Below, one piece after another: positions 53,579 to 56,245 of a DNA stretch of 64,000 nt. The notes under the pieces were generated by a model. The model searched no databases. It had not been told where the DNA came from and saw only the letters and a program-made list of their open reading frames with translations. The position numbers and the translations under genes were made by a program. The stretch's first letter is position 1. Each line of letters opens with the position of its first letter. Source of the DNA: Casimicrobiaceae bacterium (GTDB lineage Bacteria > Pseudomonadota > Gammaproteobacteria > Burkholderiales > Casimicrobiaceae); the NCBI GenBank assembly GCA_026646885.1, contig JAPKHK010000009.1:1-64000 (forward strand), written 5' to 3'.

Positions 53579-54795
53579 GACGAAATTTTACCAGAGCGCT
53601 TGGTCCGACCTGCGCGGCGCCGCCGACCGGTGACCTGCCATTGCGGGCCGTAGCCGACCAGCCCGGTCAAGATGCGCACCATCCCGTAAGCCAGCCATGC
53701 CACCGCTTTGTAGGCGCGGCCCCGGCTGGCCCAATCCGAGGGAGCGACGCGCCGGGTGCCTCGTTCCTGCATGTCTCGAATCGCCGCGCGCAGCTCATCG
53801 GCGAACTTCGCATCACGAGCAACCACATTGGCTTCGCGCGAAAGCAGCAAGCTGAAAGGATCGATGTTGCTCGAACCCACGGTTGCCCAGCGCTGGTCGA
53901 TCACTGCCACCTTGGCATGCATAAAGCTGTAGTGATGTTCGTGGATTTCGATGCCGGCCTGCAGGAAACTCCCGTACAGAGCGCGGGTGGCGAAGTGTAG
54001 CAACAGGTACTCGACCCGCCCTTGGAGTATCAACACCACGCGCACGCCTCGCTCCGCAGCCGCCAGAAGCGCGTGGCGGAACCTGAGGCCCGGCAGGAAA
54101 TAAGCGTTCGCAATGATGATTTCCTGTTTGGCCAGGCGAATGGCGGCGAGGTATGCGCTCTCGATGCTGCGACGATTGCGCAGGTTGTCGCGAATGAGGA
54201 ATTTGGCTTCCTGGTTGCCGACTCGCGCGGCGGATGGGCGCTCGCCGAAGAGCGGATAACTGGCCTGCTTGAGGGTAACGATTTCGACGATGCTCCACAG
54301 GCGCTTCATGGTCTCGACGATTGTGCCCAGGGCTGGGCCCTCGATGGCCACGGCGAAGTCCACGCGTGGCGGCACGTGCCGCGGAGTGTTCTCGTCGGCA
54401 ATGATGTTGATGCCGCCGACAAAAGCCAAGCGCCCGTCGATTTGGCACAGTTTGCGATGCAGTCGCCGCAAACGGTGCAGGCGAAAATGCCAGGGCGCGA
54501 TTTCCGGGCGATAAAAGGCGAAGCGCACGCCGCCCGCCGTGAGTTCCTCGATGAGGTCTTCCGGCAGATAGTCGTGCGAGCCCCAGCCGTCGACCAGCAC
54601 GTGTGTGGCCACTCCACGCTGGGCGGCGCGAAGCAGCGCCGCGGTAACTGCCTGTCCGGCAGCGTCGTCGGCGAAAATATACGTTTCCAGGAAGACCTCT
54701 TGGGTGGCGCCGTCGATCCCGGCGATCAGCGCTGGGAAATACTCAGCCCCGTTGCGCAGCAGCGTCAGTCGATGGCCGCCGACAAAACGTTTCAT
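53575..54795 (-). CDS. clsB: Cardiolipin synthase ClsB
   Basis: ClsB is a phospholipase D-family enzyme that joins two phosphatidylglycerols or PG with PE. It is 406 aa. Two HKD motifs are intact: [16 protein letters not shown] (H113) and [18 protein letters not shown]. The ATG at 54795 overlaps the upstream EEP gene (ATGA). The larger frame is a shadow. Its neighbours match E. coli ybhP-clsB. Confidence 0.93.
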
Positions 54796-55541
54796 GCCAA
54801 TTCGAAATCCGCGGTCAGCGCGGCATGATCTGACAGCCGCGAGCGCGGGTTGGCATAGTGCACCCCCACGCCGCGAGGCAAGAGTCCGCGGGCGTAAATG
54901 CGGTCTAGGCGAAACACCGGGAGCACTGCCGGAAAGGTGCGCGCAGGGCGCCCCTTGACGGTTTCGAACACCTCGACCACTCCCAGACGTTCCTTGAGCA
55001 TGCGATTGGCTTTGTGACGCCAATCGTTGAAATCCCCGGCAATGATCAGCGGAGCGTGCGCGGGCACGAGCGCCTCGATGCGCTCACATAGGGCGAGAAT
55101 CTGCCACTGCCGGCCTTGTTCAAAAAGGCCCAGATGAACGTTAATGCAATGCAGCAATTCCGGCGAGCGAGGGATTTGCAACTCGCAGTGCAGCAACCCT
55201 CTGTTTTCAAAGGCGTGCGCTGAAATGTCCTCGTTATCGATCGAAGTGATAGGGAAACGAGTCAACACGGCGTTGCCGTGGTGGCCATGTTCATAGACCG
55301 CGTTCTTGCCGTAAGCAACTTCGCTCCACACGCTGTCGGCTAGAAACTCGTGCTGTGGCTTGACTGGCCAATCGAGGTAGCGATCAGCGTGGCGGGCGTT
55401 GGCGCCAACGACTTCCTGCAAGAACACCACGTCAGCGTGCAAGCCTTGGAGCCGCTCGCGCAGCTCATGGATCACCATATGGCGATTGAGGTGCGAGAAG
55501 CCCTTGTGAATGTTATAGGTCGCAACGCGAAATTGCGTCAT
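54792..55541 (-). CDS. Endonuclease/exonuclease/phosphatase family protein (YbhP-like)
   Basis: This 249-aa EEP-fold phosphodiesterase starts MTQFRVATYNIHKG, the family N-terminus, with VVFLQEVVG, APLIIAGDFNDWR and SDHAALTADF metal-binding motifs. It is the upstream partner of clsB, as in E. coli. Activity on lipids or nucleic acids is not established. Confidence 0.9.
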   Translation of the reverse strand: MTQFRVATYNIHKGFSHLNRHMVIHELRERLQGLHADVVFLQEVVGANARHADRYLDWPVKPQHEFLADSVWSEVAYGKNAVYEHGHHGNAVLTRFPITSIDNEDISAHAFENRGLLHCELQIPRSPELLHCINVHLGLFEQGRQWQILALCERIEALVPAHAPLIIAGDFNDWRHKANRMLKERLGVVEVFETVKGRPARTFPAVLPVFRLDRIYARGLLPRGVGVHYANPRSRLSDHAALTADFELA

Positions 55542-55618: not shown

Positions 55619-55647
55619 AAAAAAAAGCGCAACCATCAAGGTTGCGC
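55619..55647 (-). terminator. Strong intrinsic terminator on the minus strand
   Basis: GCGCAACC-TTGAT-GGTTGCGC (stem 8 bp, 55647-55627) is followed by eight T on the minus strand. No gene lies between it and the OsmC gene, so it must end a non-coding transcript. Confidence 0.85.
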
Positions 55648-55721
55648 CAATATTCCGCCATAGGAGGAGGATGGAGGAATTTGGCCCGCTAGAGAGAAGG
55701 AGGAGGCTCTGAACAAGCGGA
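55619..55721 (-). ncRNA. Candidate small RNA with anti-Shine-Dalgarno CCUCC motifs
   Basis: A minus-strand promoter-like pair TTGTGC (55755-55750) and TTATCT (55732-55727), 17 bases apart, would start a 103-base transcript. It ends at a strong terminator. The RNA has no ORF and holds CCTCCTCC near 55704, then CCTCC and CCTCCTCC near 55677 and 55670, which are complementary to ribosome binding sites. It lies antisense to no gene, between the EEP gene and the OsmC gene. No RNA family was recognised. Confidence 0.55.
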
Positions 55722-55745
55722 CCGTGAGATAATTCTGGCATATTG

Positions 55746-55781
55746 CACTGCACAATGCAAGTGCAATGTTGCGGTGCAGTG
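55746..55781. promoter_or_regulatory. Nested inverted repeats overlapping the small RNA promoter
   Basis: CACTGCAC (55746-55753) pairs with GTGCAGTG (55774-55781). A second repeat TTGCACT (55744-55750) pairs with AGTGCAA (55760-55766). The TGC/GCA-rich pattern resembles sites bound by PhaR in polyhydroxyalkanoate-storing betaproteobacteria; this is inference. It could control both the minus-strand RNA and the OsmC gene. Confidence 0.5.
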
Positions 55782-55825
55782 AAGGTGAAATGATTGTCTG
55801 CTGAGGCGGCTCACGGAGGTGGAAA

Positions 55826-56245
55826 ATGATGAAAGCCAGGCTGAAATGGATAGAGGGAATGAGTTTTGTTGCTGAATCCGGGAGCGGACATGCCCTGGTC
55901 CTGGACGCCGCGCCGGATATCGGCGGACGCAACCTGGGCCCGCGGCCGATGGAACTCCTGCTCATGGGCGCCGGCGGTTGCAGTGGCATCGATGTGATGC
56001 TGATTCTCAAGAAGGCTCGCCAGGACGTCGTCGATTGCGTGGTCGAGATCGAAGCCGAGCGCGCCGAGTCCGATCCCAAGGTGTTTACTCGCCTCGTCTT
56101 CCGCTACCGGGTGAGCGGTCGCGCCCTGAGCCGATCCCACGTGGAACGCGCGGTCGCTTTGTCCAAGGAGAAATATTGTTCGGCCTCGGTGATGCTGGGC
56201 AAGACCGCCGCCATCGAAACCGCCGTCGAAGTCATCGAGATCTAG
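55826..56245 (+). CDS. OsmC-family protein (YhfA-like)
   Basis: This is a 139-aa OsmC/Ohr-superfamily protein with the RPMELLLMGAGGCSGIDVM motif. It has the first redox cysteine (C in AGGCSG) and a second cysteine in EKYCSASVML, so peroxidase activity is possible. Members of this subgroup are close to YhfA, whose function is unknown. The ATG at 55826 is preceded by GGAGGTGG. Confidence 0.9.
   Translation: MMKARLKWIEGMSFVAESGSGHALVLDAAPDIGGRNLGPRPMELLLMGAGGCSGIDVMLILKKARQDVVDCVVEIEAERAESDPKVFTRLVFRYRVSGRALSRSHVERAVALSKEKYCSASVMLGKTAAIETAVEVIEI

Follow-up and report, generated by a model that had tools for sequence, protein, structure and literature searches.

A predicted anti-Shine-Dalgarno small RNA of Casimicrobiaceae: a divergent RF02278 relative with putative PhaR boxes in its promoter

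The DNA analysed here, a window of 64,000 nucleotides from a Casimicrobiaceae bacterium, carries a minus-strand element beside an OsmC-family gene, and raises the question of what this element is and what controls it. The initial annotation had proposed a C-rich small RNA that masks Shine-Dalgarno (SD) sequences, ending in a terminator with eight T and carrying one motif twice. The terminator is present as described, and the repeat was recovered (CCTCCTCC at 55706-55699 and 55670-55663), and the 5' arm of hairpin 2 contains a further CCTCC, as the annotation had stated. Three hairpins are predicted in the 107-nt RNA (Table 1); the first two show CCUCCUCC in their loops, and the arms of hairpin 1 are GGUCCGCU and AGCGGGCC. 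The folding energy is -40.5 kcal/mol, with z = -4.96 against dinucleotide shuffles (0 of 200 shuffles as good). Terminator-like sites alone are no better than chance in number (2 found, 1.9 expected); the element exceeds chance because the fold of the whole RNA beats the shuffles and, decisively, because it is conserved across genera.

Table 1. Predicted features of the small RNA locus, in window coordinates
Feature	Position	Strand	Basis and remarks
-35 element TTGCAT	55755..55760	minus	sequence; TTGCRT conserved in most relatives
-10 element CAGAAT	55732..55737	minus	17 bp spacer; relatives have similar hexamers at this position
PhaR box A (predicted), ATTGTGCAGTGCAATAT	55740..55756		in the -35/-10 spacer; 18.6 bits, top matrix score in the 64-kb window
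PhaR box B (predicted), TCACTGCACCGCAACAT	55766..55782		immediately upstream of -35, at a distance of 26 bp from box A; 11.0 bits, sixth in the window
Predicted primary transcript	55619..55725	minus	length about 107 nt, with the start placed by inference 7 bp downstream of -10; fold and conservation in relatives
Hairpin 1	55683..55723	minus	loop with CCUCCUCCUU (55706-55697); fold and arms re-paired among relatives
Hairpin 2	55652..55680	minus	arms AUUCCUCCAU / AUGGCGGAAU, anti-SD loop CCUCCUCCU (55670-55662); covariation and RF02278 match
Intrinsic terminator, GC-rich	55619..55648	minus	stem 55648-55626, 9 pairs; U8 at 55626-55619
Divergent OsmC-family gene	55826..56245	plus	ORF; adjoins the sRNA and shares the operator region

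Homologues were found in 50 of the 64 genomes of the same family (covariance model, E <= 0.001), with strong matches one per genome; plasmid homologues were not found. The element is 89% identical in the sister species and 71-75% identical in several further genera (blastn, 60 related genomes), and promoter, hairpin 2 and terminator can be aligned across 16 loci. In 18 sequences, 9 of the 17 pairs counted show double changes, and the covariation score of 0.276 compares with 0.133 for shuffled alignments and no more than 0.105 for slid controls. The arms of hairpin 1 differ between genera yet stay paired, and CCTCC stands in its loop in 23 of 30 family loci. Two minus-strand ORFs of 46 and 147 amino acids offer a protein-coding reading, which we rejected because the differences among relatives are compensatory changes in the stems and variation in length. 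According to the initial annotation, loss of promoter and CCUCC motifs in relatives that keep the terminator would speak against its proposal. The 30 family loci present the opposite picture: promoter, inverted repeat, hairpin 2 anti-SD loop and terminator are kept together in nearly all of them, and the inverted repeat in 30/30. Sequence comparison confirms the minus-strand element as real and widely conserved, a predicted bacterial small RNA.

At gathering scores, Rfam matched only a tRNA in the 64-kb window. Hairpin 2 and the terminator nevertheless align over the full length (1-64) of the RF02278 model with 32.8 bits (E 4.5e-5 in a 291-base search), below the cut-off of 50 bits, versus 50.7 bits in one relative (L009). 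RF02278, the Betaproteobacteria toxic sRNA, comprises the Burkholderia double-hairpin RNAs ncS03/05/27/62, bdhR1 and Bordetella S17. Its members share with the RNA described here a CCUCC-loop hairpin followed directly by an intrinsic terminator, as seen in the full-model alignment and the covariation, the osmC/rplM neighbourhood, and CU-rich loops directed against ribosome-binding sites (RBSs; PMC5688073, PMC11722255), to which the loops of the B. cenocepacia RNAs are complementary (PMC5688073). The window RNA differs by an additional 5' hairpin with a second CCUCCUCC loop and by a hairpin 2 arm AUUCCUCC where RF02278 has UGUCUCCUCC. When public genomes were scanned for the pattern of the hairpin 2 core, the matching loci that bore an informative name were betaproteobacterial, including Burkholderia, Cupriavidus, Ralstonia, Bordetella, Achromobacter and Thiobacillus, among others. 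Other known RNAs lie further away. The alphaproteobacterial ar14 (RF02344), presumably related to cuckoo-type anti-SD RNAs, shows in alignment a similar arrangement, a terminator and two hairpins whose loops hold CCUCCUCC, but at 20.4 bits versus a gathering score of 58.8 the window RNA is not a member. Neisseria NmsRb/RcoF1 (RF02877), a betaproteobacterial sRNA whose CU-rich stretches are complementary to RBSs (PMC5688073), is not a supported homologue (19 bits, E 0.91).

The neighbourhood argues for common descent with RF02278, because the order osmC - sRNA - rplM is shared with Burkholderiales loci of the RF02278 type. An OsmC-family gene stands beside the sRNA in 30/30 family loci (L165-L194 included) and in 87 of 120 pattern-scan loci, and rplM flanks it in 26 of 30 and 59 of 120, respectively. 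In the window and in the sister genome (L174), rplM is replaced by an EEP-family gene (54792-55541, minus) and a phospholipase-D-like gene downstream. The upstream position of the element on the same strand could make it a 5' leader or attenuator of the EEP-family gene, a reading that we find scarcely credible and rejected because the downstream gene changes among loci: EEP follows only in these two genomes, other family loci have rplM, and the terminator is strong. From alignment and synteny we place the predicted sRNA within the RF02278 (double-hairpin / S17) group, as a divergent member that carries one more anti-SD hairpin at its 5' end. This homology to RF02278, S17 and ncS27 also supports the anti-SD mode of action suggested at the outset.

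From which promoter is this RNA made? The promoter-like pair with 17-base spacing that the initial annotation had noted stands, and we infer that it drives transcription of the sRNA; a generic sigma-70 scan passes over it, as TTGCAT agrees with the consensus at just 3/6 positions. The nested inverted repeats reported over this promoter are real (TTGCACTGCACAATGCAAGTGCAATGTTGCGGTGCAGTG on the plus strand), whereas their coordinates needed correction, as promoter and operators reach to about 55782. The guess that these repeats signify regulation gained support, and we can now name them as predicted PhaR boxes, with a score matrix whose training set was limited to 20 boxes found in phaP-phaR intergenic regions. 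A box lies at about the same place in 30/30 family promoters, and many of these have another roughly 25-27 bp further upstream. Elsewhere in such loci, 16 of 812 control windows reached the matrix threshold. In the window's own genome, the genes for PhaR and a phasin are divergent and the region separating them holds two boxes of this kind; two PhaC proteins and Hfq are encoded there as well. The inverted repeats at the sRNA promoter resemble published PhaR sites, which read YGCRNYGCR in S. meliloti (PMC12542648), TG[N]TGC[N]3GCAA in H. seropedicae (PMC3206438) and YTKNTGCRNYGCANMAR in R. eutropha (PMC12849132). Allowing 3 mismatches, the published PhaR consensus was not enriched in the window, and we rejected it as stand-alone evidence. 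The second-best matrix score of the window, 17.0 bits, belongs to TTAATGCAATGCAGCAA at 55141-55157, inside the EEP-family coding region, possibly by chance.

The distribution of these boxes follows that of PhaR. Among 250 genomes of the order, each at least 90% complete, 159 have RF02278 matches and 172 have PhaR. A PhaR box is present in 53 of 62 sRNA promoters of genomes with PhaR versus 1 of 28 of genomes without it (90 examined), and the independent R. eutropha consensus gives 59 of 62 versus 4 of 28, or 19 of 20 versus 0 of 9 by family majority; p values for this contrast overstate independence, because the PhaR-less families may be few clades and may represent few evolutionary events. 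The palindromes could belong to a regulator other than PhaR, with the sRNA still being of the RF02278 anti-SD type. This would account for the 9 of 62 promoters that lack a clear box although PhaR is encoded, and PhaR-less lineages show that another operator can occupy the same place: there, promoters carry TATTAGANNAT instead (25 of 28, versus 1 of 62 with PhaR), part of a palindrome that is nearly unique in each of 15 genomes searched. One genome with PhaR (G148) has the TATTAG motif and a doubtful box. Two genomes (G021 and G076) have the sRNA with no PhaR detected, which counts against control by PhaR. In favour of such control, a genus of 11 small genomes (g6) is without PhaR, phasin and strong sRNA matches. 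We nevertheless regard another regulator as unlikely, given that these genomes carry paired copies of the same motif at phaP-phaR and that box presence tracks PhaR.

The constant neighbour raises the further possibility that the boxes serve only the OsmC gene, and that the sRNA is constitutive or otherwise controlled. This is quite improbable: although OsmC is adjacent in all family loci, box A sits within the -35/-10 spacer of the sRNA at a fixed spacing in family members, and the box is retained at the -35 of many distant RF02278 promoters. The OsmC-family gene may itself be co-regulated through the shared PhaR operators. No PhaP or PhaR genes were found next to the sRNA in other genomes.

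A PhaR-type dyad between -35 and -10, as in box A, is also present in the promoter of MmgR (alpha-r8, RF00519) of Sinorhizobium meliloti, a short sRNA that is repressed by PhaR/AniA through such a dyad and linked to PHB and phasins (PMC12542648, PMC8401924). MmgR belongs to a different bacterial class, and the window RNA reaches only 13 bits (E 3.4) against the RF00519 cut-off of 41. We see MmgR as the closest functional analogue of the window sRNA, but not as a supported homologue.

We consider it likely, on evidence drawn from sequence, that the element is a PhaR/PHB-controlled, trans-acting anti-SD sRNA, divergent within RF02278, that represses translation of selected mRNAs. Without PHB, PhaR, a repressor that senses PHB granules, would occupy the two promoter boxes and keep the sRNA off; once PHB is made, PhaR would be drawn onto the granules and the sRNA transcribed together with phasin. 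The CCUCCUCC loops would then base-pair, probably with the help of Hfq, to the SD sequences of selected mRNAs and reduce translation of these, the exposed CCUCC loops probably blocking the translation start of other genes. Cells may in this way retune their proteins as storage granules form. Because PhaR can also activate, as it does phaP3 in R. eutropha (PMC12849132), the sign of its control over the sRNA is not certain. Plausible targets, by analogy with reports on S17 and ncS27, would be uptake and catabolic genes; a search of the own genome for AGGAGGAGG start sites gave nine matches of no clear theme. In B. pertussis, S17 is processed by RNase E to 67 nt, and growth inhibition on overexpression is reported for the RF02278 family, but not for S17S (PMC11722255).

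A sibling of this element lies in the 3'UTR of the phasin mRNA. In the own genome, phaP (L151 / L154) is followed by a stem with arms CUGUAUCAUU and AAUGAUACAG, whose loop presents CCUCCUCCU (as RNA, CUGUAUC...CCUCCUCCU...GAUACAG), and then by a terminator. Of the family's 30 phasin loci, about 21 have the same element, and its stem covaries in 19 aligned copies (score 0.33 versus 0.10 in shuffles; 23 double-changed cells versus 8.7). It stayed below all Rfam gathering scores in the four such loci searched. It would be a second anti-SD RNA, and its hairpin and terminator would act in parallel with the sRNA. Identical loop motifs, repeated in several hairpins and again in the phasin 3'UTR, would also suit an RNA that sequesters a protein, as CsrB/RsmY do for CsrA, with no mRNA pairing. 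CsrA binds a GGA motif, unlike the SD-complementary CCUCC seen here. The S17 relatives, moreover, pair with RBS regions: of the 92 genes raised in the absence of S17, 70 contain a complementary site that lies in the RBS or close to it (PMC11722255). We hold sequestration to be highly improbable.

The kind of RNA described here is already known; what appears to be new, although this is not certain, is the extra hairpin, the PhaR control in Betaproteobacteria and the phasin 3'UTR copy. None of these, with PhaR control taken for the RF02278 family, appeared in the openly readable literature that we searched, and the RF02278 literature searched does not mention PhaR control. Relative to the initial annotation, the RF02278 relation, the PhaR/PHB link and the sibling element are additions. 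We lean towards a broader reading, in which the RF02278 sRNAs of PHB-storing Betaproteobacteria would form an arm of the PhaR regulon: PHB, by removing PhaR, would switch on the sRNA and, in Casimicrobiaceae, the anti-SD RNA of the phasin 3'UTR, and lineages without PhaR would use another regulator with the operator TATTAGANNATNCTAAT. If true, storage status would directly set the translation of other genes. The reported inducers of RF02278 RNAs (S17, bdhR1/ncS27, Herbaspirillum tsRNAs) are starvation, glucose, biofilm and stationary phase, all of which matter for carbon storage too, and the PhaR link offers one testable cause. It would furthermore give Betaproteobacteria a counterpart of the rhizobial MmgR, including the PHB model Cupriavidus necator, in which a 2021 review described the role of riboregulation as undeciphered (PMC8401924).

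In PhaR-less genomes such as L281, L240 and L215, the palindrome TATTAGANNATNCTAAT lies over the -10 element, replacing the PhaR box.
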